64,000 nt of DNA from Ciborinia camelliae (taxonomy: Eukaryota > Ascomycota > Leotiomycetes > Helotiales > Sclerotiniaceae). Within the stretch, counting starts at the first letter, position 1, and each line of letters starts with the position of its first letter. Positions 237-56,763 of this stretch are shown piece by piece. The translations under genes and the position numbers were made by a program. The notes beneath the pieces are model-generated. The model ran no database searches, was not told the origin of the DNA, and worked only from the letters and a program-made list of their open reading frames with translations. The stretch is from contig JANPYM010000001.1 of NCBI GenBank assembly GCA_025890175.1, forward strand, positions 4,062,340 through 4,126,339, in the 5' to 3' direction.

Positions 237-1075
237 ACGGCAAATATCTGAAATAGCATGTTTTTAAACTTTAATACCCCAATTAGTATAATATGCTATT
301 CGAGGTCTAATATATACTATTTGAGATTGATTGAAAAAATAAAAATATACTATTCTAGTACAAAAAAAACGACAAATATCTGAACTAATATGTTTTTAAA
401 CTTTGATATTTCAAATAATATAGAAACGTTCCATTTTGACCTTAAATAGTATAGGTTCGAAAAAAGAGAGTAGGTTTGTAGGGTTTGTAGGGTTTGTAGG
501 TTTGTAGGTTTGTAGGTTTGTAGGTTTGTAGGTTTGTAGGTTTGTAGGTTTGTAGGTTTGTAGGTTTGTAGGGTTTGTAGGGTTTGTAGGTTTGTAGGTT
601 TGTAGGTTTGTAGGTTTGTAGGTTTGTAGGTTTGTAGGTTTGTAGGTTTGTAGGTTTGTAGGTTTGTAGGTTTGTAGGTTTGTAGGTTTGTAGGTTTGTA
701 GGTTTGTAGGTTTGTAGGTTTGTAGGTTTGTAGGTTTGTAGGTTTATAGGTTTGTAGGTTTGTAGGTTCGTAGATTCATAGGTTCATAGATTCGTAGGTT
801 TGTAAATTCGGTGAAAGGGGATAGATTAGATGGAAAAGGGTTTTTTTAGATCCAAATAATATATAAATTAGGATTAGAATAACACTTTTTTTGGACTTAA
901 ATAATATATAAATCGAAACTAAAATATTATGTTTTTTTTGAGATTCAATTAACATTATTTATAAAAAGTTTTAGGGTTGAAATAGCAATATATACTATTT
1001 GAGGTTAAAATGGAAAGTTTTTATGCTAGTTGGGGTATTAAAATTGAAAAACATGCTATTTCAGGTATTTGCCGT
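237..1075. mobile_element. MITE-like element with inverted ends and TTAATTT target duplication
   Basis: The ends are inverted copies of each other, starting ACGGCAAATA and closing with its near reverse complement. The match runs for about 55-60 bp at roughly 85-90 percent by eye, through GAAATAGCATGTTTTT and TAATACCCCAA. The outer flanks carry the same 7 bases, TTAATTT, at 230-236 and 1076-1082, as a target-site duplication would. A third, more diverged copy of the arm sits near 367-455. There is no transposase frame inside, so a non-autonomous DNA element is the simplest reading. The centre is filled by a minisatellite. Confidence 0.75.
471..800. repeat. TTTGTAGG minisatellite inside the MITE-like element
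   Basis: About 35-40 head-to-tail copies of the octamer TTTGTAGG are present, some as TTTGTAGGG. Copies near 745-800 are degraded (TTCGTAG, TTCATAG). There is no coding frame. The array is enclosed by the inverted arms of the element, so it probably grew inside it. Confidence 0.9.
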
Positions 1076-1241
1076 TTAATTTATCTTTGCAACTTCCTTC
1101 TCAATATCCCAAGCCAACTAACTCAAAGCCTGATTGTTTCAAATTAGCTACCAAAAACAAATTAACTACCAAAATTGTGAGTTAAGGGTTTCGTGATGTC
1201 ATTTTAGTTGGTTGATCTTGGCCACTGGCGCCCTAGGGATC

Positions 1242-1994
1242 TCAATCGGCAGCTTCTCGCTCCCTAAAATCTTTTACAGCTTGTACAGCTCGTCTATCCT
1301 CTTCTTCGAGTTCCTCTAAACGAGCTTTCCATTTAGCTTCCTCGATTTTTCTTCCTTCATCGAGAAAGAGTCTCCAAGGGTCTTCTTCATCCTCGCGATT
1401 GACCGAATGTCGAGGTATCGGCGGAGGTTCTTCAAGACCATACGAAAATTCTCTGTCCTTTCTGTCCACTTCCTCGAGCTTCTCTATCTTGGCTTTCAAT
1501 CGCTCTTTTTGAAATTCCGTTTCCTGTTTGTTGACGAAGACGGGAGGGTCATCTTTCCCACGATTTATACGTAAAGGTAATAGCTCTTTTTGAGATTCCA
1601 TTTCCCGTTTGTTGACGAAGACGGGAGGGTCATCGCTCACACGATTGATAGTGCGTAAAGGTACTAGTTCACTGTTGATAACCGCCCGAGGGACATCGTT
1701 TCTACGACCGATAGTACGTAAAGGTACTATTTCACCGAAAGCTGCTTCTTCAGCATACACCGGATCGATAGCCGCCCGCTGGCATTGATCACAGGGTCCC
1801 TTTTCTGGGATCTCCTTAGGTTCTAGTGCTTTGCTATTCAAGGCTCTTTTGAGGCTCAAAGCCCTCTTGGCTTTCTTCAAAATAGAGGGGACTTCAGATA
1901 CCTTGTGCCCGCACTCAAAGACGATAAAGTTTTGGGAAATCTTATCGTTTGTGGGTGGGTTGGGTGGGTTGCTTGGTTGATTTGTTGATTGCAT
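1242..1994 (-). CDS. Hypothetical protein, C-x-H / C-x-x-C family member 1
   Basis: I do not recognise a named family. The start is placed at ATG 1994 (MQSTNQ...), giving 250 residues; the in-frame extension to 2105 reads like untranslated sequence. C28-G-H30 is followed by a basic segment KKAKRALSLKRA (40-51) and by C68-D-Q-C71. The middle holds about three diverged copies of a VPLRTI..R..D.P..V segment, and the C-terminus is a charged, probably helical stretch (KLEEVDRKD, ELEEEDRRA). The same N-terminal layout recurs in the genes at 3.9, 7.4 and 9.2 kb. Four possible ligands suggest a small metal site, which is inference. No signal peptide or membrane segment is seen. Confidence 0.7.
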   Translation of the reverse strand: MQSTNQPSNPPNPPTNDKISQNFIVFECGHKVSEVPSILKKAKRALSLKRALNSKALEPKEIPEKGPCDQCQRAAIDPVYAEEAAFGEIVPLRTIGRRNDVPRAVINSELVPLRTINRVSDDPPVFVNKREMESQKELLPLRINRGKDDPPVFVNKQETEFQKERLKAKIEKLEEVDRKDREFSYGLEEPPPIPRHSVNREDEEDPWRLFLDEGRKIEEAKWKARLEELEEEDRRAVQAVKDFREREAAD

Positions 1995-3920
1995 TTTTAA
2001 CTTTCGAATGCTGCGAATTCTTAAAGATGGTGTTGCTGTAAAATTGTGTAGGATTGTTTTCTGTGTGTTGTTAATGTAGGGAGAAAAGGAAAAAAAGAAA
2101 CCCAAAATTCTGGATATCTAGAAGGTTATTATAAAGTTCTCATGAGGAATTGTTTTGGTCATATTTGGGGCATTGTTCTCTTAACTGAGTCACGCGATAT
2201 TTCAAAGTCAACTGCTAGGGAAGGCTGAGCGAGGAGAGGGGCATCTGCATACACGTAGATTGCTCTTGTTCTGCCCCGACATGCCCCTATGTTATTGAAC
2301 GAGCTTCTTCAACGAGCGGCTAGAACTGCTCACTCAGTTGTTGGACTCCTTTTCTATTCAAGGCCGGGCTTTAACACCCGTTTGAGTGTGTCTGTAACCA
2401 AAGATTTGCTCCCACTAACAGATATATTATCGAATATATAGCCAGTCGGAGGCATTAACTCACCCAACAATCATTATAGCGATTTTTATCAGTTTGTATA
2501 TATGATAGCGTTCTCTAGCGAAGCTTACATTTGCATATCTAGGTATTTTCGGTTGATTCAGGAGGCGAGTCACGTGATCCAGAACCTTTCTAAACCCTCT
2601 TTTCAAGGGGCATACTGACTCGTACGTACGGAGATGATTTAGGTAGTAAATTTGCATGGTAGATTAAATTTACTTATGTGTGAATAACTTTGGTAGATTA
2701 AATTTACTCGAACTATGTGTGAATAGTTACTCACCTCGGATTCGAGATCCGTTAGTCGCAAGTCCGATAGACCACATCTTTGACTATACTAGATGTTAAA
2801 CTGAATGATGTACAACATCGTCGTATTACTGTGACTAAGGAGCTAGGTTCCATAGAGTCCAGATATTCTATATAGGGAATCGTGATGAATAATTAATGCT
2901 AAACTAACTCGTGGATTCATGGAGCATTTATAACAACATTAAAGATAGACAATATTACATTTCCGGTAATCTCGATGGTATTTAATTGGTCAAAAATTCA
3001 TATCAGGACTTTTTTTACTTGTCTATTTATTTCTAACATATATGGTAAATCCTACAAATTGTGGATAAAAGGGGTTATGGGGATTGAAAGGTTGCTGCTA
3101 GAATATCCGACTTAGTCTTTGCTAAGTTAACCCAGTACATATTACATCAACAGTAAATGAATGGAGTGCCTAATGATGTGTTTTTTGAGATGAACTCAAA
3201 AGTCATGTTGGATTCTGAAATTGACATTTCCTGGTACCATTTTTTTTGCTGCCATTTTTTTCAAATTTGCAAGGTAATGTGGTAATGTAATGGTATGTGG
3301 AGAATTGAGATATAGCCAAATTCAGTCTCATAACTCAAGTTGGCCCAGGACCACCCAGTAATCTTAGTTTAGAGGGGCAACAAATAGGGGGGGCAACGAA
3401 CTTTTAGTAATGAAATTGGTGAAACATGGCTGATCACATCATATTTGCAAATCACGGTTTTAGCATTATCACAGTTGGGGGATTTTAGTTTAGATAGTTG
3501 AAGTGTTTTCATTTTTGGGGGATTTTAGTTTAGATAGTTGAAGTGTTTTCATTTTTGGGGGATTTCTATTTTTTTGGTAAGATTAAACTTTTGGTGTTAA
3601 AAACTAGGCCCTAAATAAAGCATTTCGATAAATCCTCAAGAAAATCAAGGCGGTTTTTTCTTTTTCTCTTTTGTAGATACTAGTTTTATAGGTGTTTTTA
3701 TTTTTGAGGGGGTTTTCTATTTTTTTTTGGTAAGATTAAACTTTTCAAGCAAGTTATAACAATCAAATTAGATATCAAAAACATTTTTAATGTGTAAAGT
3801 AAGTTTAAAAAATAGAAAGATTTGGTTACGATGATAGCTAGTTATAACCATTTTTATTAATGTTGATTGTGTTAAAAACTAGGCTCTTTAGTGAAAGCTT
3901 TTAGAGGATTTTGATAAAAC
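1995..3920. other. Intergenic stretch with a 40-bp tandem duplication
   Basis: There is no supported gene. The stretch holds the promoter side of both neighbours' regions, AT-rich tracts and related fragments (AAAACTAGGC near 3600 and 3873; GGTAAGATTAAACTTTT near 3577 and 3728). These suggest small old duplications. Confidence 0.6.
3481..3560. repeat. Perfect 40-bp tandem duplication
   Basis: Two identical 40-base units, each beginning GATTTTAGTTTAGATAG and ending ATTTTTGGGG, lie head to tail. A partial third begins at 3561. The identity points to a recent event. Confidence 0.9.
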
Positions 3921-5129
3921 TCAAGAGGGTCGAGACGGTTTTTTCTCTTCCTCTCCCTCTTTCTTCCCTTCCTCTTCCTTCTTTTCTTCTAATTTCTCCT
4001 CCCCATCCTTGGGATTGAGCGGAGAAGCGGATTCGATGCTCGACAGATCCACGTCGAAGGGACTGTGAATTCGGATCTCCGGGAGCTGTGGAGCTTGCCC
4101 CTCGAGCTGTGGAGCTTGTGCCGGAGTCAGGGCTCCACGTCTGGTTGTGAAAGGTGTTGGAGGCCCATGGGTTCTTTCCCTATACGCCTCAAGGCTTCCG
4201 CTCCCATACGATGTCACCACGATGACATCCGGAGGTGAGAGACTCGGTAGGAGTCCTTCCCTCTGCCTCGCAAACTCCAGGTAACGTCTGATTAATTCTG
4301 GACCCGACATTTCGGGATCCAGAGGGCTGTCATCGAACCACTGTGCACGAGGCTCCATCGTCCGACTTCTACGAAGTCGTGGAAATTCCATGCTAATCTG
4401 TCCGAGTCGATAAAATCTACGCTCTCCCTCAGAAGCTGGATGAGCGTGTTCGGGGTCTGGTTGTTGTTCGCCCAAACCCCTAGCTTCCCATCCTTCGGTC
4501 AATTCTCGACTGGAAGGGAGCCCAGTTCTCACCGGTCGTGGACTGGAAGGGAGCCCAATTCTCGCCGGTCGTCGATCGGAAGGGAGCGCAATTCTCGCCG
4601 GTCGTCGATCGGAAGGGAGCGCAATTCTCGCCGGTTGTGGATCGGAAGGGATCGCAATTCTCGCCGGTTGTGGATCGGAAGGGATCGCAATTCTCGCAGG
4701 TTGTGGACTGGAAGGGATCGCAATTCTCGCCGGTTGTGGATCGGAAGGGATCGCAATTCTCACCTGACGCGGTCGTGCATCTGGAGACGGTGGTTGCGAT
4801 CTCAATTCAACAGCTCCGGTGGCTGTCGGAACTTCAAGAGTCAGAGCCGGAGCCTGAGGACGTGGAATTCGAGAAGCAGGTTGACCAGGTGCATGGGTCT
4901 CTGTTCTCGAACCACGAAGAAATGCCGCGCAAGAAGGACAAAAGTCCGGGGATACTCTGCGAGTGGATTTGGGTTTTGAATCCATACTAAATGCCCTCTT
5001 GATTCGTTTGAACACCGAAGGCTTTTTGGCCGGAATGATTAGGCCATTTATTGCTTCGAGGTCTGGAAGCATGTGATTGCATGCGTAGACAATGATGGCT
5101 TGAATGGCTTGTGACTCGTCCGACGACAT
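3921..5129 (-). CDS. Hypothetical repeat protein, C-x-H / C-x-x-C family member 2
   Basis: The single frame gives 402 residues from a good ATG. The N-terminus has C17-N-H19, a basic linker FKRIKRAFSMDSK (40-52) and C64-P-S-C67, the layout shared with the genes at 1.2, 7.4 and 9.2 kb. About residues 120-205 are a row of 11-residue repeats of the type ARIAIPSDPQP, encoded by 33-bp DNA units. After that come a conserved-looking block (MEFPRLRRSRTMEPRAQWF) and an acidic/basic tail of K and E. The protein is mostly disordered by composition, with no signal peptide. Frames on the plus strand over the repeat are shadows. Function is unknown; a binding or scaffold role is only a guess. Confidence 0.7.
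   Translation of the reverse strand: MSSDESQAIQAIIVYACNHMLPDLEAINGLIIPAKKPSVFKRIKRAFSMDSKPKSTRRVSPDFCPSCAAFLRGSRTETHAPGQPASRIPRPQAPALTLEVPTATGAVELRSQPPSPDARPRQVRIAIPSDPQPARIAIPSSPQPARIAIPSDPQPARIAIPSDPQPARIALPSDRRPARIALPSDRRPARIGLPSSPRPVRTGLPSSRELTEGWEARGLGEQQPDPEHAHPASEGERRFYRLGQISMEFPRLRRSRTMEPRAQWFDDSPLDPEMSGPELIRRYLEFARQREGLLPSLSPPDVIVVTSYGSGSLEAYRERTHGPPTPFTTRRGALTPAQAPQLEGQAPQLPEIRIHSPFDVDLSSIESASPLNPKDGEEKLEEKKEEEGKKEGEEEKKPSRPS
4513..4766. repeat. 33-bp coding minisatellite, about 8 copies
   Basis: Units start GAAGGGAKCSCARTTCTC and repeat every 33 bases, so frame is kept and each copy adds 11 residues. Copies differ at a few sites, with GTCGTCGATCG versus GTTGTGGATCG endings forming two sub-types. 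Copy number is likely to vary between strains. Confidence 0.9.
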
Positions 5130-7398
5130 GGTTTCTGGTAGCTTTGGGATTTCTTTTTGAACTAGAAATAATTTCTAGTGTATGGTTAAGTTTGAATGTT
5201 GAGCTTTCTATCCGTTTGTGTAAATAGTAGACTTATTATTCGGTAACTTTGAGTGTGAGGAGAAGAGAGAAAAGGAAAGAATTTGAAACATGGATTCTCT
5301 TGTTCTTAAATAGTTTTTACGAGTAGTTATTTCGATCTTGTTCTGTCGCTATCATGTAGCTTTTTCGTGCATACTCTGGATATTCCTGTCGATGCTAGGC
5401 ATCAACTAACGCTGGCCGGTCTTTAAGTTGTTTGACGACGTTGAAACTTCAGCCACCTTAAAAGTTTGAGAGACTAACACCTAGGATATGCTCTGCTATT
5501 ATTCTGCCATTATTCTCTCACTTTTGTGGTACTATTATTGGCCGACATGGCATTGTTTTGACTATAGTATTGACATTGCATGTAAAATCAGTTTTACCGC
5601 CGATTTGACCTCTGCATCTCACCAATATAATAATCCTCCTGCACACTTGTGACCAGGGATTTTGATCTGCAAAGTTCAGGCACTATTTATGTGTTTTCCA
5701 GAGGCTATTGTACAACTCTATTCTAGATCTCGCTCTCAATCTTAGAAGAAGATACCAGTTTGTGACTGATTTGACTTCTCAACCTTCCATTACAAAAGTT
5801 TCGTTCTATACATCTGCAACTAATCACAGCGGATTATATGCCATATAATTCAAATAACTAAGTAAAACTGCATCAATAAATAGGGTTATTTACATTACAT
5901 AGGAAGGGTAGGTTTAGGCCAAAAATATACATCCGGTTAAAAGGGGGTAACTCGCTACGATTGATTACTTAGTTTTGACTCTTCTGGGAATCACAGATGC
6001 TATTCAATCTTTAATATAATCAAAATACCATGGGAAATCAATCACATAAAACTTATTTTTAGGTTTGAAAGGCTTAAATTGGGAGAAATCTGAGGATATG
6101 ATGTGTTTTGAAGCAGATTGTCACACGATTTATCAACACGTGATATTATAGTCACATGATATAACGAAATGAAAATGAAATGTTTTGGCCAGGAGACGAG
6201 CCGGAATATATATGCAAGCAGTTATAAGCGTAATAAATTGGGGGAGGCGCTTAGCACGCACGGGTTTCAGAGCCTATTCTGATTTTGAAGCTGAAAAGAT
6301 TAATTTTTATGAAATTTTGAAGCTCTATAGATTTTGAAGCTTTTAATACTTTGGGGGAAGTATACACGTCTTTCCTTTCCCTCAAATCTCCCACCCTTAG
6401 ATAACAAAGAAGGTTATATATTATTCATATGATAATAAAAATTGAATTCTAATACTAAAGTTTTTCCGATCCGTTTTTTGAGGAAGGAGTTACGTGACTC
6501 ATATAGAACTAGTTTCTAATAAAAATCCAAATACGTAAAGTTCGAAAACGACCTCAACGGCACACTAGCACAAAATCAAACTACTCTTAATAGCTTCCGC
6601 AGAATATTTTCTTCGCCAACTTCTGAAACATTGTAAAATTGTTGGAAAATTGACTTTTTTATTTCGTGCTGCTATAATCTGGGGATAACCTCAAATTTGG
6701 AATTATAAATCCATTAAGCCTTCCAAAAACGGTAATCAAATTCTTTTGATGTTATATAGGTCTTCCCATTTGAAATGTTTGGATAGGACTTGATTTCTAG
6801 GATAGCGTGGGGCTGAGTTAGTTGCTGATAGAGACTAAATGTCTAGGGGATGGAGGGTTTATGTTATAGATTGGAGGTATCTTTTATATTAATTATAAGT
6901 ATTTTGGTTTCATCACATTTTGCAAGATATAGGTTGGTTATTAGTGTACAAAAAAGGTATGTTTGGGTTTTATAATAGTTTTATTAATTAATTATAGAGG
7001 ATAAGGGGTTAGCGATGTCGAGTTAGTTGCTGATAGAGACTAAATTCTCTAGGGGATAGAGAAGGGGAAGGGTAGGGTTGGGTTGGTTTGTCTAGGGTGT
7101 TACAGATTTACTCTACCGATTTTCCTTATCAAGTTAGTACTTACCAGGTCATAATTATTGATTGTAGTTTCACCACATTTGCAAAATAGTCATAGTCACA
7201 GTGTACAAAAGTGTTGTTTGGGTTTATTGATATAGTTTTTTTATTAATTTGTTGTGTATTCTATTGGTCTGTTGCTTCGTCAAAAGATTGCCACCCTCCT
7301 AAAAGAATCGCTACCTCTATGCAAACGCCTAAATTAGTTTAGTTAATCAGATCAAAAATATTCAGCCGGGGATTAAACAGAAGAAGTGATTTGTGCAC
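5130..7398. other. Long gene-free stretch with an old ~200-bp duplication
   Basis: No frame over 60 residues is convincing. Segments near 6805-6985 and 7005-7245 align loosely: both have GAGTTAGTTGCTGATAGAGA then CTAGGGGATRGAG, a TTTCAYCACATTT block and GTGTACAAAA with TTTGGGTTT. This points to a diverged tandem duplication, possibly the relic of a repeat or of the unit that spread the neighbouring gene family. Confidence 0.6.
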
Positions 7399-8079
7399 TT
7401 ACAAAAACTCCATTCCGGAATGCATTTTCTGCTCCCTCCTCTTTTTTGCGGCCTCAAGCCTCAACATCAAGTTGGGGTTTGCCAGCCTCTCTTGGGGTCC
7501 AGGCGGTTCGTTACCTGCCCGGTCCTCCAAAAATTTGTCCAATTTTGTTCCTCCTTCCTCGAGCTGGCGCTTCATGTCCAGGTGGAGCGACAACATCTTC
7601 CTATGACGTTTCTCCCGCTCGGCCGGTGTCTCTTCTGTAAGACTTTCTCTCACACGTTCTTCCATATCTCTCGCGTCCGATTCGGCGCGAAATCTTTCCC
7701 AACTGAGGGGATCGTATGGAAGCCCAAGCCCTGTATAGGGATCATGCGCTGGAAGAACGGGGAATGGTTCTGGGTCCGCTGTCTGTGGCACCATGGGGGG
7801 TTCCACCACGGTGTTACTTCGTCTCCCCGCTCTTGTGTCTTGTTGAGGGGCGGGGCCTGTCTGACTTCTCCAGGGAGCATTTGGTCGTGCGTTCTCTTCC
7901 TCGAGTCGGAGTCTTTCACAGTATGGACACAACTCCATAGAAGGTGTCCGGATAGTCTGTGTAAAAGAGATGGCTCGCTTGAGCCGCTTAAGAACAGTTC
8001 CCTTATCAGGATTCTGGAACTTGTGGTCGGGGATTTCATGGGTGCATCTATACAACACCTTTCTGATTTGGGAAGGCAT
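7399..8079 (-). CDS. Hypothetical protein, C-x-H / C-x-x-C family member 3
   Basis: This frame encodes 226 residues. C12-T-H14, basic LKRLKRAISFTQ (30-41) and C51-P-Y-C54 match the layout of the other three family genes; the spacing from the CxH Cys to the first CxxC Cys is 39 residues, close to members 1 and 2. The remainder holds a Pro/Arg-rich middle and a long charged helix-like C-terminal half (REKRHRKMLSLHLDMKRQLE; KKRREQKM). No signal peptide or membrane span is seen. Several plus-strand frames over it are shadows. Function is unknown. Confidence 0.7.
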   Translation of the reverse strand: MPSQIRKVLYRCTHEIPDHKFQNPDKGTVLKRLKRAISFTQTIRTPSMELCPYCERLRLEEENARPNAPWRSQTGPAPQQDTRAGRRSNTVVEPPMVPQTADPEPFPVLPAHDPYTGLGLPYDPLSWERFRAESDARDMEERVRESLTEETPAEREKRHRKMLSLHLDMKRQLEEGGTKLDKFLEDRAGNEPPGPQERLANPNLMLRLEAAKKRREQKMHSGMEFL

Positions 8080-15751: not shown

Positions 15752-18700
15752 TTATTTGTGCTCTATATAGCCCGGTGCTCTCTTCATCCCTTCCCAATGG
15801 CGGTACCCAAAGGTTTGTCCACCGGGTCTAAATGCCGTATGAGTCAAGTGCAAATACAGATAGCGCGCCGGCTCACCATTCGCGGTAAGGATGGCGGTTT
15901 CCGTATTTAAGCCTTGGCTTTCCAGACCTTGGTGGACTACTGCCATTTGAAGTTCTCCGTTGGTAAGTCTCTGCAGGGCGTTATTGAGCTGTTCCTCATC
16001 GTAATAATCGTCTCTTGCCTCGTCCCCGGTTCTCGGAATCGTGTCGATATATTCCCTCAAGAATCGTTCGGGGGTCATGTTTTGGATCCATGGATCGAAA
16101 GGATACTGATGCTGAAGAGAGTGCATAATGGCTGCCGCACCACATTGTCCAAATCGATCGGAAACTGTTGCTTCCGTATATACTGTCTGCCATTCTTTTC
16201 TTGAGAAATTCTTTATCTTATATCTCTCGTGAACAGTGCCCCTGTTTATCTTCTCCAGCTTCTCAAACCCGAATTTAGTAAGGGGTGGGTGTGGGACTCT
16301 CAATTCTGCGGCGACGGCTAGAGCTCCTTTTTGACGTGTCAATTCCTCCGCCTTCTGGTGGTATTGCAAAAGTGAATAAGGGTCAACAGGTTTATCCCCA
16401 CCAACAGGTTTATCCCCACGTGCCAGCGATTTAGCAATCTCTTCGTCCCTACTTACATCGGGTTTAGACCACTCTTCCTGGAGCCTTTTAGCAAGCTCGA
16501 GGTCGGATTCCTGAGAATGGCCCGGTACGTGAGAGGGGAGTGGCATCCGGTGATTCTCTGAATATTGACGCATGGCCTGTGATACAATCGCGCGGTTTTC
16601 TGGAGAAGTTTGGTACAAGTCATTCACCTGCGCCTCGAATTCGGCTTTGGGCAAGTCTTTGTATGTGTTTAACAACTCAATGATATCTTCGACCCTGTAT
16701 TGACCTACTGGTTTGGGGCGGAGCTTAAGGACGGGCTGAGGGCGGAGCTTAAGGACAGGCTGAGGGCGGAGCTTAAGGACAGGCTGAGGGCGGAGCTTAA
16801 GGACAGGCTGAGGGCGGGGCGGAGGGCGAGGCTCAGGGGCGGGCTCAGGGAAGCGCCTATGCTTTTTGGGAACTATACCTGCTGGAAATCTTTCTCCGGG
16901 TCTTTTCTGCCCGACAGGAGACTGGGCATCCATCAGTAAAAGAACCTTTCTCAAGATTAGGTGCACAAATACTTACGCTTGGGGCAGGAACAATCGGTTG
17001 CACTTTTGGTGGAACTTGGATACCGGAAACCTGTCCAGTCTTGTCTTCCTCATCTGAATCCATGTCTACATCATCATCCCATGAAGGCGTCAAGGGAGTT
17101 TGAATAGTCGAGCTTGGGGTTTTTGGGGTTTTTGGTGTTTTGGGGGTTACAAGTCCAACTTCATCCTTACCGGGAACTAATGCAGTTTGGCTTTCCTCAC
17201 CCGAATCTGGTTCGTCATCCCAAGTAATTTTCTTCCCCGGTGACTTTGGTTTTGGGGATGGCTTTGGTTTTGGCGATGGCTCTGGTTCCTCAAAGATGCT
17301 TGGAAGTTCTGGATATTTGACCGTGCTTGGAAGGTCTGGATACTTGACCGTGCTTGGAAGTTCCGGATATTTTACCGTGCTTGTTGTTCCTGGTGTTTTA
17401 GGTTTTGGTGAAGGCTTTGGTCGAGGTGATTTTTCTGGTTTTAATGATAGGGCAGGGGTGAGTCCAGGCGTTAGAGGAATGTTAGAGCCTTCCGCGGTGT
17501 CTATGTCAAAAAATGATTTACGGGGACCCTGAGACTCTTCCAACAATTCCTTTACCACCTTTTGCGATATCGAAGGCTCGGGTTTTTCAGGTGACTTTAG
17601 AGGCTTTGATGGAGGTTTTAAAGGACTGGGAGGGAGAAGTGAAGGTACTGTGGGGAAAATTGATTCGGTGACTTTTGTCTTCTTTGGGGGTGGTTGTGTA
17701 ATCTCCGGCCCTCCGGGGGGTGGTGGTGGTTGTCCATCAGGAGGAAACTGAGGTGGTGGAGGTGGTACCCCAGGCGGTTTACCGAAGGGTTTGAAAGGGA
17801 ATTTCTTTTTCCTTTCCGAGAGATTATCCTCGGTATCACTTCGATCGTCTTCATCCCCTCCCACCATATACCTAGCAATTCTATCACTCCAATAATTGAT
17901 AGCCGTATCACCCAGATCCATATCCTCCAGCAACTGGAAAATATCAACCTTCCTATCCTTGCCACTGCCATCTTCAGGCCAACGCTCGGTTTTGGCGTAT
18001 GGATTGAAAACATAGAATTCTGCAAGATGTACTAGCTCCAGGCAGAAATCGACCCAATAAGTGACATCCTTTATATCTAGTGAACCACGGGCTTGTCGGA
18101 ACTCGATGGTTCGGGGTCGTGTTGAACTGATCAATGGTCTAAAATTTACGATCCTGAGCCTGGTTGCCCCAGGAAAACAAAAGTATTCAGCGAGTTCCCG
18201 TTCATCCTTCAGCTGCCAAATCTCATCACGAATCTCCCGAATCGTTTTCTTTTGTTTAAAGACAGATATATCCGCGGGCGCGTCCCATATTTGCTTTACG
18301 CTATCCTGAGTTGGGATAAAATCGGGGCCTAAAATCGCTCTCATACGATTACTAATAAGGTTGCCCCTTGCAACAGGATGGCCTGGACGACGACATCCAG
18401 GGTGTAGTTTTGAGATCTCGTCTTCATATACCAACAGAATGCCCGCTAATTCTTTTAGAGCGTCAAGACTGGGCGCTTCAACATGGACTTGCAGGGCACA
18501 TTGATTTGTGATGAAGCCTTCATATAATTCATCACCGTTGCCTTTGAGTGCATTGACCACTTCTTCAAGCTCAGCCGTATCTCGATCATCGTTACTGTTA
18601 AGGACTCGAGATATCACTTCGATGCCATAAGAATCCCAGCGTTTCGAAATATTGCCAGAGAGGCGTGGCACCCATTTATAAAGATTGGCGGAACCTTGAC

Positions 18701-19265
18701 CGACAACTGTTCTATCTGTCGAAACGATCCATCGCTTGTAAGCTCCATCAACCTTATCTTCCCGTGTTTGTTCTCCTCCATGTCTAACCCTATCTCTGAC
18801 CAATGCAGCTTTCTCATTCAATTTTCTTAAGACGATTGACTGTGGTTGGAGGGAATAAGGCATTAGATTAGCCATCTGTTTCTCCCTATCTGAATTCTTG
18901 GCGTTGTTTCTAAGAATTCCCCAACTATTATATATGAGATCAGAAGTTCTGTTGAAACGTGCCGTGACCGCTGGACTCCACTTTGGGTCACGACGAATAG
19001 CTAATGGGACATTTTTCTCAATTCCATGGTCAGGGCCACCCCCATCGTCATCTCTAAGATCGAGTTCCAGCTCATGGAATGCCAACACATACTCCAATTC
19101 GACTCCGTATCGCAAGTTTCTGCGTTCGAACCTTTTTTCGGCACTTGTCTTTCTTTCCCTTCTTTTTCTTTTTTCTCCTTTTTCCCCTTCCGGTTGTAGG
19201 AACGTTGGGATGGGGACTGAAACGATAAGAGGCGCGGTAGCCCGTTTTATCCAGTCAACAACCAT
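15752..19265 (-). CDS. Amidoligase-2-like / UIM / papain-OTU-like fusion protein
   Basis: Two exons, 16977-19265 and 15752-16921, are joined by a 55-bp intron with donor GTAAGT and acceptor GCCCAG, phase 0. They encode 1152 residues. Residues ~50-425 carry motifs typical of the amidoligase-2 (glutamine-synthetase-like) fold: YGVELEYV (53-60), STDRTV (182), YGIEVISRV (213), ALQVHVEA (257) and IEFRQARGSLD (387), so ATP-dependent amide or isopeptide bond formation is likely. Residues ~495-830 are a Pro-rich linker with STVKYPELP and RPQPVLKL repeats. Two UIM-like helices follow: SDLELAKRLQEEW (902-914) and RDEEIAKSLARG (921-932). The last ~150 residues have DRFGQC(1023)GAAAIMHSL and a late RH(1138)WEG, the Cys/His layout of papain- or OTU-like peptidases. 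The peptidase call is inference from motifs. Confidence 0.75.
16723..16815. repeat. 24-bp coding tandem repeat in linker of the fusion gene
   Basis: Four copies of a 24-base unit, GAGCTTAAGGACRGGCTGAG plus GGCG, encode RPQPVLKL on the minus strand. The plus-strand frame reading AELKDRLR over it is a shadow. Confidence 0.85.
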
Positions 19266-20026
19266 ATCGAAGACTTATGGATTTTGCAACTTGTGTTAGG
19301 TGATTTAGTTCCACGGTAATTTGGGAAATATTAAGTAAAATGGAAGAATAGTATCCTTTGATGATATAATAACTGAAAACGGACTTGAACAAAGGTAAAC
19401 CTAAGAAGAAAGGAACCTAATTCAAGAGGAAGAAAAGAATCTAAATTCAAAAAAACACTCCTTTATTCCAGCCGAGGGCACTTTGTACTTTGTGAATATT
19501 GAAGCTCCTTGACCTGTTTGTCACAGTGCAAAATTTGACAAGAACATTGAGATCTACCATTTTTTAATCAATGTACCAGCTCCCTTTTCAACAATGAGTC
19601 CAAATTATGTGAAGTTATCAAAGCAACGCAAAAAATTATAGCCAGAAGAATGGCCCATTATCAAGAAATCTGAATGCTCAGAAACATGCCATTGGTACAG
19701 TCCACCTTGAAAATAGTCATCCACACGCTCTAAGCAAAGATGATTTGCAGCACTCCATGAAACAATTAGCTCACATAAAGCCTCCATCATCCAAGAAAGT
19801 ACAAGACTACTCACGAATAGTGGGATAATGAGTACTTGTTGAAAATATTAATTATCTGAATTGATTTTGGGTAGTGCAACAGATTCATTAGGTATTAATT
19901 AATGTTGAATGCCTAACGTGAACTTCCTAGGGAGAATAAAGAAGCGCTTAAGCAGTGGCGGGAAGGCCAGCAAGAGTAGAAACTGCTTTGATTAGCAAGC
20001 GGCAAGTACAAAAATCCTCTCAATCC
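19266..20026. other. Intergenic; nothing supported
   Basis: This is the promoter of the fusion gene and the 3' side of the SH3BGR-like gene. Only short frames are present. Confidence 0.6.
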
Positions 20027-47634: not shown

Positions 47635-48728
47635 TCACGGAATTCCAGGTAGAATTATCTCTCCTTCTTTCGGTTGCACATCTAACTTTCCATCCTCACC
47701 CCAAGGTGCCTGATGTTCCTCCGCAAATTTCCGTATATCATCAAAATTCTTGCATTTAAAATCACGGTTGAAATCTGGGTATATGTGAGAATGTTTGCCG
47801 GACATTGCCCAAAGATATGGATGTGCGCCTGTGTCTGCTGTGCACATTAGACGTTGACGAATGGTGTCTAGACAGTGGTCTGTGATGAATTAGTGGACAC
47901 AGTCATCAAGATTGGGAGATAAGGTGCATACTTATATGCGCTTTCAGGACAAATTCTTCGTTTTTGAAAGGTCCTTCTCCGAGATTGTGATAGTATTCGG
48001 AGTTGTAGTAAAGACCTTTTCGGAGGAGATTCTACATATTATGGGCGTCAGATTATGGCATCTGAGAGCAAGTGCTATTCAGGATTGGAAGTTCTCACCA
48101 AACAATGCAATTGATGAAGCACTTCCACCGTAGCAGGATACCCAGGACCTCCATCTTTCTCGTCGACTCTGAAATGATCGAGTGATATTCCGGCCCTGGG
48201 TGCATCTTCTATTGGGATGATGATCGCTTTGTCTGTCCAGATATGTTAGAAGCATGTTTAATTCAGTTTTTATAAGGTCGGTTGGATAACATACAATTCG
48301 TTCCAAGATCATACCATGCTTGGTCAACTTCTGGGCTGGGGTCTTCTCTGTATATGGTGTTGGTGAATAGTGAACCATTGAACCGGACAGTTTCGTATTT
48401 GATGTCGACATTGTCGAGTATGGGGTCTGAAAGTCAGTATACTTTCGAATCGATCATAGAAGTTTTGCAACTGACTCCAATTTTGACTTGTATGCCTAGC
48501 ACAAGTTTTATCGAGATTCCCTTGGGATTGATATGTGGTGAGATATGTTGCAGTGTTCGAGAGCAGGATAATCACGATAGTGCAAGATATCCAGAAAATA
48601 TTCTGCGCTTTCGAGGAGCTTGTGGTTCTGAGAGAATCGAGAGACGAAATGTGAAGTTTCTCGGCCTCTGTGTATTCATTTTCCAGATTTGCCAAAAATG
48701 GTACACTTGAATCATCTGAGTGTCCCAT
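47635..48728 (-). CDS. UstYa/DUF3328-family oxidase, RiPP-type
   Basis: UstYa-like proteins are membrane-anchored oxidases that cyclise peptides in fungal RiPP (ustiloxin-, phomopsin-, asperipin-type) pathways and act in some other pathways. Five exons are read: 48476-48728, 48295-48426, 48099-48232, 47932-48031 and 47635-47879; lengths sum to 287 codons plus stop. After a cytosolic start (MGHSDDSSVPFLANLENEY) comes one membrane span (FWISCTIVIILLSNTATYL), then the YETVRFNGSL block and both hallmark motifs HQLHC (before the third intron) and HINHC (across the fourth). The C-terminus ends PKEGEIILPGIP. Introns are 49, 62, 67 and 52 bp with canonical ends. All key residues are present, so it looks functional. 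Confidence 0.9.
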
Positions 48729-49469
48729 ATTTGAATTCAAATGAGTTCAAATTCTCAAGAAATGAGTTTTGATGCAAGTAGTACTGTTTCTTAGTTTACT
48801 GGTAAACTAGAAGTTCCTCAGATATCTCACAAAAAAGTCATGGGAGGCACGAAATACCGAAAGTTCGCCGCCACGCCCTCCCACACCGAGTTGCCCTCAA
48901 TGATTTCGAAGTAAGCACTAAAATTATCTCTGTATCTTCATGTATTTTTACAATGTCAGTCTTGATAAGAACATGAAATACCGTCATCGTCATCCGTTAT
49001 ACGAATAATGAACAGACGATGCAAGTTACATTGATTTACACGAAGAAGAATTGATAGCGTTGGATTGTGCATGCATATTTGGGGGTTGAAGGGTCGCCAA
49101 GTTGATACCTCCTTCCCCTTATAGAAGCGAGCCCCACATGTCATCCCACCTCGTGGGATTCTATTTTATTTATTACACGACGGATATATTGAAATTCTAC
49201 CCCGAGTAACTTTATACGACATACGAATCTGACATTCTTAGCATTGAGGTATTGAAGATCTTTTGCAAAACGGCGAATCATACAGCGACTTGTAAGTCTG
49301 GTGACGAATATTTATGACAGGATAATGATGGGCAAGTGTAATCAATGTGTGGATACTACAGTATGATGTGGTGATCTTGACATGACTTCAACAAAACTAT
49401 CTATCTTCATGATCAACCATTCTCTTCCAGAAAGTTATACCCCAGCCCAATTGTCCCAAACGGAGACTT
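48729..49469. other. Intergenic between UstYa gene and precursor
   Basis: Holds the UstYa promoter and the 3' side of the precursor gene. No frame is supported. Confidence 0.55.
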
Positions 49470-49520
49470 TCTCTCCTCTACCACATGAATAACATTGGCC
49501 GCCTACTATCCTTACGCATC
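49470..49520 (-). pseudogene. Broken fifth repeat of the RiPP precursor
   Basis: The same frame continued past Asp97-Ala98 gives, within exactly 17 codons, three stops (TAA, TAG, TAG) and then AANVIHVVEER, which matches the repeat ending. The length and ending show a former fifth repeat lost by nonsense changes. A GTAAGG at the stop could instead be read as a splice donor, but no partner exon was found. Confidence 0.6.
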
Positions 49521-49866
49521 CCGCTTCTCTACGAGATAAGAAAGATATACGACTTGTTCAGGCTCAACATCCCGCTTCTCTACAACATCAAAAAGATTCC
49601 TGGCTTCTTCAGGCTTTGCGTCCCTTTTTGTTACAGTGTACCCAAGATCATGAACATTCACTGGTTGCGCACTCCTCTCTTCTTGTCCTACAACATATAA
49701 AAGATCCAGAGCTTTTTCAGGCTGTGCCTCTCGATTTTCTGAAATTTCTGTTAGCATGACACCATTCATGTACATCAATAGAGTTAAATCACATACCGAT
49801 TGGAGTTGGAAGAGCAATAGCTACTCCGAGCAAACTCAAAACTGTCAATGCGATTGTGACCTTCAT
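49512..49866 (-). CDS. Putative dikaritin-type RiPP precursor with four Kex2 repeats
   Basis: Such precursors are secreted, cut by Kex2 at KR sites, and their short cores are cyclised by UstY proteins. Exons 49797-49866 and 49512-49738 (intron 58 bp, GTATGT...TTTCAG, with CTAAC before it) encode 98 residues. Residues 1-18 are a signal peptide (MKVTIALTVLSLLGVAIA). Four repeats follow at 27-45, 46-62, 63-79 and 80-96; the last three are exactly 17 residues. Each has a [AV]-x-P start and a short hydrophobic core (LLYVVG, LGYTV, LFDVV, LSYLV). The last three end in TKR or EKR, the first in EER. Core tyrosines fit UstY chemistry. A fifth repeat beyond the stop is broken. The core boundaries and the product are inferred. 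Confidence 0.8.
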
Positions 49867-50415
49867 GATGATGGTGAGATGTGAGGAATATGTTTGAGTG
49901 CACGTTGGCGAGATGTCTGAGTGAATGTTGAGATGAGAGTGATCTTGTGCTGTAAACTTGATTTTTCTACTATATTTCAGGATGAAAAGGAAGATATATA
50001 TAAGAAAATGTTGGTCGGAGTGTCACATACGGATATCTGACGTGCTTTTAACCTCCTTCCTAATTCTGTTAAAGCGAGATATTTTCTCGGGTCCTGGTAC
50101 ACATGTAGATTCAAAGGATCAGTTTCTTATGCATAGATGTATGTATCGAGATAAAGACTGTGCCGCAAATACTATAGAGATTTCTGTAAGACTAGTCATA
50201 AGTCAATGTATTCATCCGAGTTGCCCAATGATATTTAAATTCTTACATTAGCTGCTTTATCTTTGCTCTCCTCATGGTGATATTCATTCTGTGATATCTG
50301 ACAGCAGACAGCTGGCGGAGCTTTCCGAACCAGAGAAGAGATTGCGCCATATCTTTCTTATTATTTGGAAGTTGTTACTGATCCCAACTTTGTCTCACGA
50401 GAACTTTGAATTCAG
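49867..50415. promoter_or_regulatory. Divergent promoter of precursor and second UstYa-like gene
   Basis: The two genes start back to back about 550 bases apart, which allows joint control. No binding site could be named with confidence. Confidence 0.45.
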
Positions 50416-51069
50416 ATGGTGATGGGTCTTGGAGGCATGAGAAATCCAAGTATCATGGACTCTAAACGCGCGAGATATGATCAGCTTCCACTTGATGAGG
50501 ATTTAAATCCACCAGAAGAAAGAAAGACCACTATCATCACACGACGATTTCTCCACGGTCTACTATGTGCAGTAGTCATAGTATTGATTACGATCGGTAC
50601 ATTCTGGGCATGGTCTCACAAACGCCCAAATCTGCCTCAATACATCGACTGCGGTTCATCAACCGAAGAAGCGCTCGCAAAAGGCTGTGTGATGGAACCT
50701 ATGATATACGGCTGGGTTCCCAAAGAATGTTATTTCGAAGAACTCAGCAAGCAATACTCTCCCTTCGAAGACCGAGAATGGTACACCGATGATACCTACT
50801 CAGTAAAGATCCCGCCCTCAGATCTCTGGGCGGGAAAGAGAAAACACGTTTTTACCCACATGTATCACTCGACACATTGTTTTTTCCTGTGGAGGAAATT
50901 GGCACTAGGGATTGCGAGGAGGACGGATTATTTGGATGATAAGTCGTTGGAGTTGGAACATGCGGATCATTGTTCTGAAATCTTGGATCATTATGGGGGA
51001 GAGACGATGGATTCGACGAATGATGTTGTGTTGGGATTTCATAGATGTGAAAGATTGACTTGGGCTTAG
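50416..51069 (+). CDS. UstYa-like membrane protein, second subtype
   Basis: The single frame gives 217 residues. A cytosolic start (DQLPLDEDLNPPEERK) is followed by a membrane span (FLHGLLCAVVIVLITIGTFW) and a lumenal part with CGSSTEEALAKGC, a WVPKEC block and DREWYTDD. Two HxxHC-like motifs follow: HSTHC and HADHC, the latter in an ELEHADHCSEIL helix. This is the layout of the divergent UstYa-related subgroup common in fungal secondary-metabolite and RiPP loci. It faces away from the precursor gene. Upstream in-frame ATGs are close together, so the exact start is open. It is probably a second oxidase on the same peptide, which is inference. Confidence 0.8.
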   Translation: MVMGLGGMRNPSIMDSKRARYDQLPLDEDLNPPEERKTTIITRRFLHGLLCAVVIVLITIGTFWAWSHKRPNLPQYIDCGSSTEEALAKGCVMEPMIYGWVPKECYFEELSKQYSPFEDREWYTDDTYSVKIPPSDLWAGKRKHVFTHMYHSTHCFFLWRKLALGIARRTDYLDDKSLELEHADHCSEILDHYGGETMDSTNDVVLGFHRCERLTWA

Positions 51070-53494: not shown

Positions 53495-54289
53495 TTACAT
53501 GACCAAAAGTCCCGCCACACCCAACGCACCAGTAAACGCCATCCAACCCGCCATCGCCATACCCGCACCACTTGACGAGCTAGCACTAGCACTTGTAGAT
53601 GAACCCGTGGCACTTGTAGATGAGCCTGTAGTACTGCTACTAGAGCCCGACGAACCCGAGCTTCCAGCCTTCACAGGCGCAAACGTACCACCTACAAGTC
53701 CTGGAGGGTTCTTGGTAGCATCTTGATTAAGTTTCTTTGCTGCATCTGCGAATTGGGTGAGGGTTTTGCTATTGTCGGCTCTGGGTGGCATGTTAGAATA
53801 GGAACATGGGATACGGGGGGCAAAAAATTGAGAGAGGAAAAGAAAGACTTACGGGACGTTGACGGCTCCCACCATTCCGCCCTCACAATGTCCCGGGAAT
53901 CCGCAATAGAACCAAATCGGCTTTGTGTCATTCACTTTTACACTGAATACCGAGGGGTTCCCGTCGCTGCTCGTAGTTAAGATTGGTCCAGAATAGAATC
54001 CAGTGCCATTACAAGGAGAGGCAAATGCAGCCTGTGCGACGGAGTGGGTTGCGGGGAAAAAGTGGAATTCGAGGGTTGTGTTTACATCGGCTTTTGTTTC
54101 ATTTGGGGAGAAAGTGAGTTTACCACCAGAACCAACGAGAATGGTGTGGGTTGGATCGGAGGGAGAGGTGCTGGTTGTGGTTGAAGGAGTGACGGCGCTG
54201 GAGGAGGAGCTAGCATCGGCGGCTGCGCCGTATGCAGCAAAAGTGAAGGGAAGAGCTCCGAGGAGGAAGGTAATTTTGCTGAAATGCAT
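53495..54289 (-). CDS. GPI-type plastocyanin-like cupredoxin
   Basis: Fungal extracellular Ser-rich cupredoxins bind copper at the wall; they carry electrons or help copper handling. Exons 53853-54289 and 53495-53780 (intron 72 bp, GTAAGT...CACCCAG) give 240 residues. A signal peptide (MHFSKITFLLGALPFTFAAY) and a Ser/Thr linker precede the cupredoxin domain (~50-145). Type-1 copper ligands are visible: His in ATHSVAQ, then Cys, His and Met in YCGFPGHCEGGM. A Ser/Thr-rich stretch (~175-215) and a hydrophobic end (MAMAGWMAFTGALGVAGLLV) after SSSSGAG suggest a GPI anchor. N-glycosylation sites are present. Minus-strand second-exon ATG (MPPRAD) is not a start. Confidence 0.92.
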
Positions 54290-55449
54290 ATTGAAATATT
54301 ATTTGTGTTTGCGATACGAAAACCAATGATTATGTATTGATTGATTGAATGGATTGAAGGAGGTGTGAAGAGAAAAAATATGCTGAAGACTTTCAAGCTT
54401 TGGAGATTATGAGGAGATCAAGATCTAGATTGAGATGAGGAGTTGAGAACTAAACAAAGGCAGTTGCTTAGTTATATAACAATCATACCACGCCTCTTTC
54501 TTCTTTGATCTTCGTAAACGCCATACTAAAAAAAGCTATTCGCGATGACATCCTCAAACTAAGCCCCTCGAATTCAATTGCATCCGAAACTGATACGACA
54601 AAATAACCGCTCCATATTGGTCCCCGAATACGACCTCAAGTTTCGGTTCACTCATCACCAACCGAACTTCTACTTTAATTGACCGGCATTTGCACCCCCC
54701 AAATAATCAAGAATATCACACCAATCACTCCAGGGCTGAGGTAACAGCATCTGATAGGTTCGGTTATTTTCAAAAATATTCAAAATATTGTTGTAACGCT
54801 ATGTAACCCCTGGGATCTATTCTGATCCCCCGCGCTAATCTCAAACAGAAATGGCTCATGATGGTCGACTTCGATGCAAGTTTGACAGGAGAAATTCGTT
54901 GCCGAGAGAAATCTCTTACAACAACATGTAAATATTTGTAAGTGGCTTGAACATTGAAACGCGATCTGAAGAGGGCGCAGCAAATTATGATGCTTTCATG
55001 TCTTGTTCTTGATTTGTGTGGTGGTACGTGGTATCTCTTGTGACCCGCTGGCCCGAATGACGACCTCTTTACTGCGGACAACAATTCAATGGGCTGCTAA
55101 ATTTGTAGTTCTTTTTGTGAACATCATTGGAGGTTTTAAACTGCCATACCGGATATTTCTATTTACAAATCAAATAGATATTCTGATAAGGAGTATTTTC
55201 GAGTTCTATGTCCGAGTTGTTTGCGGAGTGAGTGATTTGTGCCTCTCTCGAAGGATGTTGTCCAACGGTCATACAAGTATGATTTCGTGATGTGACGGTA
55301 CTTTCACATCTCCAAAATTGCTCCATCTTCCACAGATTGGGTATGATTTTAGAGGCGAAACCAAACATCAAACGTGGTTGAGTAACCCTTCGATGAAGCG
55401 TTGAACATGTGTTGTGGCGTTTTATTAATCTTAACCCTCAATCATCTTA
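54290..55449. other. Intergenic; nothing supported
   Basis: Promoter of the cupredoxin gene and 3' flank of the Zn2Cys6 gene. Short frames only. Confidence 0.6.
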
Positions 55450-56763
55450 TCATCCACGAGGGGTAATATCATTGCATGCGGGAGAAGGGGGCCATCGAAG
55501 TAGTATATCGACGATCATTTGTTTCTCTTGTGTCCGAAGAATTTCAAGTGGAACAGCTAGTACGTGATTCCAGGCAGGACCCAGCATTTTAGCGATGGCG
55601 GAAATATCACGATCTGCTAGACCTTCGAGCCACCAGAGTCCAGAGACGAGTTTGATGAAGGACATGTAATAAGCGCAAATAACGAGCGCTCTCGGCCATT
55701 TGTTTTTTACTAAATCTGCGAAGTCGTTGGGTGTAAAAGATGGCCATGAGATGATGCGAATAAACAAAGGTACGCAAAGTTGATCCTGACGAAGAATTGC
55801 ATAAAGGTTCCCTAGAGTATCCAGGGTTTGACAATATATCCCGAGGTGTTCAAAATCTTGATCGCTGGGATCCATGTATAGCATATCTATCAGAGTAGTG
55901 GGAACCATCGGAGTAGCGAGCAAATCATTCAAATTTCGGACAAACAGTGGACCAACAGAAGTTGTTGTGTTTACACCCCCATCCGGAGTTTTCATCGAAA
56001 CGATAAGACGTAATCCTTGATATAAACCCATCCAGTTTACTACCGTGAGTTCATCGTTATTATCTCTGTCCCCTGAAGCAAGTACAACAAGGAGTAATGC
56101 CATTATAAGAACTGCCTCGTAGTTCTTCGAATCTTTATTGACTGTCATTATTGCAGTACGATAATTACGTATCGCTTTTCCGCGGTAAAGAGCTGTTTGT
56201 CGTTTACTTTCCTTGTTTAGTGGGAGTAAATATTGGTGATGAAGAGATGCCAACCCCAGCATCCCATTCATAAGAAATTCATTCTCAAAAGCAAGAGATG
56301 GGACGGCCACTTGCATTACATGACAAGCTTCAGAACCGAGTGCCACACGAGGTCCTGTAATTGTAGAATAATGATGCATTAAACGTACATCTGTCATAGA
56401 AAGTACCCCAGTAGCTGTAGATATTGGAGGGAATGGTGAATGCATAACGTCCCAGGATATTTCGACTGATTCAACGGGTGCATCAGAACTACCAAGTTTC
56501 TCCAGGGAGGTACTTTGCCTGGAATCTGTTGAACTTGAAGTATCATTTGCCTTGGTAACCTTTTGTACATAATGGCAAGAAAGCTTTCTTGTGTCACAAA
56601 AGGAGCATTTTGGTTTAGCTTCATCGCACTTTCATCATGGTCAGTGGCAATAAACCACAAATGGAGCAAGTGTTGGATATACCTTAATCTTTTTTGCCTT
56701 GCAAGTTTGACACCCAGCCCTCGACTTTTTATGGGGTCTCTTTGTAGTGAAAACAGAGGTCAT
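55450..56763 (-). CDS. Zn(II)2Cys6 transcription regulator, Upc2-like
   Basis: Exons 56683-56763 and 55450-56628 (intron 54 bp inside the zinc cluster) encode 419 residues. The DNA-binding motif is C-x2-C-x6-C-x6-C-x2-C-x6-C, read as CQTCKAKKIK then CDEAKPKCSFCDTRKLSC, preceded by basic KRPHKKSRAG. About residues 110-400 form a fungal-specific regulator domain (DVRLMHHYSTITG, VPSLAFENEFLMNGMLGLAS, HHQYLL), typical of Upc2-like sterol or metabolite regulators. It is divergent from ORC5. It lies about 4.5 kb from the RiPP locus, with the cupredoxin between, so a link to that cluster is possible but not shown. The long frame alone starts at 56445 and misses the zinc cluster. Confidence 0.92.

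Follow-up and report, generated by a model that had tools for sequence, protein, structure and literature searches.

UstYa/DUF3328 is named as the class-defining enzyme of dikaritins (PMC12048977, in part), and work on ustiloxin, phomopsin, and asperipin-2a describes DUF3328 proteins as closing the rings of these peptides (PMC6514808 and PMC7329392, in part). In the ustiloxin and phomopsin systems, a repeat precursor with a signal peptide and Kex2 sites adjoins UstYa-family genes, and a Tyr stands two residues ahead of a branched residue (PMC7329392 and PMC6514808, in part). Ustiloxin-type precursors keep the Tyr and the Ile of a YxIx core, which is consistent with ring closure there (PMC7329392, in part). 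The asperipin-2a locus is a very small cluster without a tyrosinase in which a UstYa homologue closes the ring, and the epichloecyclins (gigA) come from a small secreted precursor with four repeats and KR sites (both PMC6514808, in part). Loci without a tyrosinase or a peptidase have been noted among dikaritins (PMC12048977, in part). In Venturia inaequalis, nine such clusters are described, with imperfect repeats allowed (PMC9632046, in part).

The locus described here was found in a 64-kb window, the whole stretch of DNA that was analysed (C1:4062340-4126339 of a 46.2-Mb genome in 27 contigs). Judged from its sequence, it is a real orphan dikaritin-type locus that probably works. A precursor gene and two enzyme genes occupy 3.4 kb (47635-51069), from the stop of a five-exon UstYa gene to the stop of a divergent UstYa-like gene (Table 1). 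The precursor gene has the UstYa gene on one side and the distant UstYa-like gene, in opposite orientation, on the other. The first-pass annotation had claimed this arrangement, and its coordinates are correct, with all three frames intact. The 58-bp intron that it placed in the precursor is likewise present in the spliced model. Purely by geometry, the 588-bp intergenic region is a possible shared promoter of the precursor and the divergent gene. A TATA-like stretch lies on its precursor side, at 49995.

Table 1. Coordinates of the locus in the window and of the precursor frames at four other UstYa loci (positions of the latter are those of the locus named).
Feature	Position	Strand	Remarks
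UstYa gene	48728-47635	-	five exons, 287 aa; spliced model, PF11807 match; predicted cross-linking oxidase
UstYa gene exons	48728-48476, 48426-48295, 48232-48099, 48031-47932, 47879-47635	-	introns GT-AG
Precursor gene	49866-49512	-	two exons, 98 aa; spliced model
Precursor exon 1	49866-49797	-	signal-peptide-like; signal peptide judged by eye
Precursor intron	49796-49739	-	58 bp; spliced model
Precursor exon 2	49738-49512	-	repeat exon; spliced model
Repeat 1	49674..49730	-	EAQPEKALDLLYVVGQEER, 19 aa; NR before, ER at end; coordinates counted
Repeat 2	49623..49673	-	SAQPVNVHDLGYTVTKR, 17 aa; borders ER and KR
Repeat 3	49572..49622	-	DAKPEEARNLFDVVEKR, 17 aa; KR either side; without Tyr (NLFDVV)
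Repeat 4	49521..49571	-	DVEPEQVVYLSYLVEKR, 17 aa; KR either side
Intergenic region	49867..50454	.	588 bp separating precursor ATG 49866 and ATG 50455 of the divergent UstYa-like gene
Divergent UstYa-like gene	50455..51069	+	one exon, 204 aa; HSTHC and HADHC; predicted partner oxidase
L032 precursor	2333-2829		EPDRSVVGTGSDRYKR, six copies in one frame; signal-peptide-like start
L030 precursor	3039-3480		SADEDLIEQYKR copies; adjoins UstYa gene
L013 precursor	7561-7957	-	GDVKEPLNAYQMFSDIERR type; RR-bounded 19-aa repeats (NAYQMF units); near three UstYa matches
L015 precursor	5863-6219	-	119-aa frame; KR borders; units WAYVKA, WGYVKA, WYYTKA; near two UstYa genes

The product of the five-exon gene carries the class-defining domain, with a PF11807 score of 209.4 bits (cut-off 25), and contains the HQLHC and HINHC motifs by which it had been called a classic UstYa. 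Two HxxHC motifs, as in dikaritin UstYa-type proteins, occur in both enzymes of the locus. The copper dependence of ring-closing DUF3328 proteins is reportedly the topic of a paper, going by its title.

The divergent protein scores below the PF11807 cut-off of 25, at 12.4 bits from a longer start and 12.8 bits from a shorter one. Its likely start is 50455, the start position of its closest relatives. These include proteins of Sclerotinia trifoliorum (83% identity), Botryotinia calthae (79%), and Botrytis fragariae (78%). Going by this one gene, the fungus probably belongs to the Sclerotiniaceae but to none of the three species named. In this genome, the protein found itself and one weak match with internal stops (E 0.0021, 30% identity). 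Four of the 11 aligned proteins of the family match UstYa at E <= 10 (best E 0.01), and both HxxHC motifs, at the HSTHC and HADHC positions, are invariant in all 11. The alignment was made without P0005 (B. cinerea), one of the 11 database relatives. The middle of P0005 lies in another frame than that of the other relatives while both its ends match; either the protein was wrongly predicted or the copy is broken. When the divergent family was compared by hhalign with UstYa sequences, seven in number and all from the genome studied here, the probability was 78.7 (E 1.7e-5) over 71 columns, and the alignment superposed both HxxHC motifs of the two groups. A distant relation to UstYa is thus supported at the sequence level despite the sub-cut-off Pfam score, in line with the earlier description of this gene as a divergent UstYa-like neighbour. 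In the predicted structure (mean pLDDT 78, pTM 0.63), a single long helix at the N terminus is accompanied by a small domain, and a comparison of this fold with solved structures gave no useful match.

The precursor runs from the signal-peptide-like exon through repeats 1 to 4 to a terminal DA and the stop. It had been described as having KR-spaced repeats of 17 residues with Tyr/Val/Leu cores. The length holds for repeats 2 to 4, but repeat 1 has 19 residues, and of the five basic borders only the last three are KR, preceded by NR and ER. Tyr-x-Val is found in three of the four repeats (YVV, YTV, and YLV), but in repeat 3 Asp replaces Tyr to give Asp-x-Val. Pairs of repeats are identical at 6 to 8 of 17 positions (repeat 1 counted minus two residues), and Pro4, Leu10, and Val14 are identical in all four. 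Single release of all four repeats would be doubtful because two of the five borders are not dibasic. Repeats 3 and 4 alone are enclosed by KR, so repeats 1 and 2 might exit as one longer peptide.

The repeats are not accidental. The summed BLOSUM62 score of the three natural 17-mers was 85, against a maximum of 55 among 100,000 residue permutations, none of which reached the natural similarity. With KR removed, the score was 55 against a maximum of 30. Furthermore, repeat detectors run on shuffled frames made 0 calls in 2,355 and 2 calls in 15,020. These results strongly disfavour, to the point of making it most improbable, the view that the precursor is no more than a fortuitous reading frame lying between the UstYa-type genes, even though no homologue was found for it. 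The precursor is single copy in this genome. The first-pass annotation had proposed to look for orthologous precursors with the same repeats. A relative of the precursor turned up neither in this genome nor in a search for related sequences, which is a weak negative.

Each of the four repeats starts with X-A/V-X-P (EAQP, SAQP, DAKP, and DVEP), in the exact form XA-XP in three of them. In alpha-pheromone precursors, XA and XP dipeptides after a Kex2 site are the recognition motif of Ste13 (PMC9769878, in part), and KREA and KRDA are given as Kex2/Ste13 examples (PMC6339444, in part). Are the products of this precursor then linear? The XA-XP ladder is a signature of linear pheromone-type peptides, and a DUF3328 gene lies near 22% of KEP genes but is missing near the other 78% (PMC7329392, in part). 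Both points favour a model in which Kex2 and Ste13 cut the precursor into linear peptides for secretion, as with alpha-pheromones or effector-like KEPs, and the UstYa-type genes act on something else. However, this precursor is directly flanked by two UstYa-type genes, whereas annotated pheromone KEP genes almost never accompany DUF3328 genes, with three exceptions (PMC7329392, in part). The Tyr present in three of the four repeats also argues against linear products. On balance, we consider this model unlikely. Alpha-pheromone precursors have nearly identical repeated cores (PMC6339444, in part), unlike the repeats seen here.

More evidence for a dikaritin-type locus came from other UstYa loci of the same genome. 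The UstYa profile gave 58 exon-level matches, 57 of them above the cut-off, which we grouped into about 33 loci. Eighteen were read, ten with ~8-10 kb on each side, seven with ~6 kb in all, and the window. Basic-bounded repeat frames were present at five of the 18, namely the window, L032, L030, L013, and L015. At the last four, a signal-peptide-like stretch, judged by eye, lies just upstream in another frame; in L030 this exon can end at a GT donor in phase 1, which is also the phase in the window precursor. The start codons of precursor and UstYa gene are back to back in L030 (3039 versus 2173) and L032 (2333 versus 651, UstYa on the minus strand). The two are also back to back by strand in L013, whereas in L015 the precursor and the UstYa match closest to it share a strand. 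In L032 the dibasic sites are followed by an XA or XP dipeptide (EP), as are most of those in L030 (SA), but none follows them directly in L013 and L015, two of the five precursors. Thus, the ladder is no general rule. The L030 repeat frame has an in-frame stop at ~3390, followed by more repeat-like sequence.

The L015 repeats are unequal, like those of the window precursor. Unequal cores had been put forward as what sets this locus apart from ustiloxin-type precursors. That distinction fell away, as a second precursor of this genome shares the feature and unequal cores have already been described. The dikaritin-type reading itself still fits, with the UstYa gene, the UstYa-like neighbour, the signal-peptide-like exon, the basic-bounded repeats, and the four parallel loci on its side.

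The locus resembles the ustiloxin and phomopsin systems in its repeat precursor with Kex2-type sites, its adjoining UstYa-family genes, and a Tyr two residues ahead of a branched residue. Dikaritin precursors have a signal peptide and repeats set apart by Kex2 sites. In the present precursor, the first exon resembles a signal peptide by eye, and the borders of the repeats include NR and ER besides three KR. The branched residue is Val here and Ile there. In other words, the YxIx core is absent, with Tyr-x-Val three times and Asp-x-Val once in its place. The YVVG of repeat 1 is one residue off the YVIG of ustiloxin A as given in PMC7329392 (in part). UstA has 16 equal repeats, compared with four unequal ones here. 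Also unlike those systems, no tyrosinase, methyltransferase, or peptidase was found nearby, and one of the UstYa-type proteins scores below the cut-off. In its small size and lack of a tyrosinase the locus resembles that of asperipin-2a, which differs in having one UstYa homologue together with a transporter and a reductase, and a core, FYYTGY, that forms two rings. Likewise, it shares the four repeats and the KR sites in a small precursor, here predicted to be secreted, with the epichloecyclins, whose sequence, judged by description, is unlike.

How might the locus work? The explanation that we favour, and consider likely, is that the repeats are processed by Kex2 and Ste13 and their Tyr-x-Val cores are oxidatively cross-linked by UstYa, with the distant UstYa-like protein as a likely partner. 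The precursor would enter the secretory path, where Kex2 would cut at the three KR sites and perhaps also at NR and ER. Trimming of XA and XP by Ste13 would then yield peptides of ~11 residues ending near YVVG, YTVT, FDVVE, and YLVE. If the Tyr and Ile of ustiloxin and phomopsin are a guide, UstYa may form an ether bond between Tyr and the beta carbon of Val at the second position after it. The distant UstYa-like protein might perform a second oxidation or act as a helper. The genome has one match each to DPPIV_N and P_proprotein, which we take to be the families of Ste13 and Kex2. These matches support the model together with the 209-bit UstYa, the permutation result, the ladder, the Tyr-x-Val cores, the repeat frames at five of 18 loci, and the hhalign match over HxxHC. 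Against it stand the NR and ER borders, repeat 3 without Tyr, the lack of a precursor relative or a nearby tyrosinase, the sub-cut-off score of the divergent enzyme without a fold link, and the missing ladder in L013 and L015.

Another possibility is that the substrate is decaying or drifting fast: a formerly repeated core has eroded, and the well-kept divergent enzyme now acts wholly or mainly on another substrate. The low identity among the repeats and the NR and ER in place of KR agree with this, as does the contrast between enzyme relatives at 78-83% identity and a precursor without any found, a weak contrast because small spliced precursors may lack annotation and the only fungal DNA searched was that of this genome. 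However, no disruption is seen in the reading frame, at the splice sites, or at the three KR sites, and Pro4, Leu10, and Val14 are constant in all repeats, which makes such decay quite unlikely in our estimate.

Much of what is seen here is not new. The unequal cores, the compactness, and the missing homologues all fall within known dikaritin-type loci. No description was found, in the available parts of the related literature, of a Ste13 ladder combined with UstYa genes, of Val replacing Ile in the core, or of a well-kept sub-cut-off enzyme beside a precursor without relatives. A bolder proposal, tentative and on the doubtful side, is that the divergent gene represents a second UstY oxidase family outside Pfam UstYa, one conserved from Sclerotinia and Botrytis to Hyaloscypha, which together with a classic UstYa turns a fast-changing Ste13-ladder precursor into several Tyr-x-Val macrocycles. 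If so, a steady enzyme with an ever-changing substrate would mark a set of cyclic peptides of fungi that genome mining at present overlooks. The interest of the locus is greater if the divergent enzyme is a separate family acting on the precursor, and a UstYa-like family under the Pfam cut-off could expose loci that miners overlook. A 2022 review names no more than five dikaritins as reported (PMC10512285, in part), compared with the 58 exon-level UstYa matches of this single genome. With a precursor and two enzyme genes in 3.4 kb, the locus is a handy test piece for ring formation, and it is suited to asking whether a cyclic-peptide pathway uses a Ste13 ladder.

As to the surroundings, a Pfam scan of 30 stop-to-stop ORFs of the window, besides the genes of the locus itself (of 45 non-overlapping ORFs with at least 100 aa the set held 29, plus one shorter; short exons and the other 16 ORFs lay outside it), matched no methyltransferase, P450, peptidase, or tyrosinase family, in agreement with the claim that the first three are missing nearby. 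A genome-wide search for tyrosinase (PF00264) likewise placed no match in the window; on this contig, the closest one lies ~1.4 Mb off. A fungal transcription-factor frame (55453-56631, minus strand) with Fungal_trans_2 above the cut-off and a weak Zn2Cys6 match lies ~4.4 kb from the divergent gene and is, from its domains, a possible regulator candidate for the precursor locus. A plastocyanin-like copper-binding match below the cut-off (53852-54298, minus strand; E 0.002) lies ~2.8 kb from the divergent gene. Further away, an 805-aa frame (16860-19274, minus strand) has an Amidoligase_2 domain (PF12224, 50.9 bits). Outside the precursor locus, the detectors flagged in the window only a tandem protein repeat (4296-4976, called on both strands) within a 417-aa minus-strand frame (3924-5174), which was set aside. 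Elsewhere in the genome, locus L034 (~1000-4200; C10:446,000-449,200) has a UstYa gene twice in tandem. The copies are 99.7% identical over 1,383 aligned bases, which indicates either that the duplication is very recent or that the assembly produced it.
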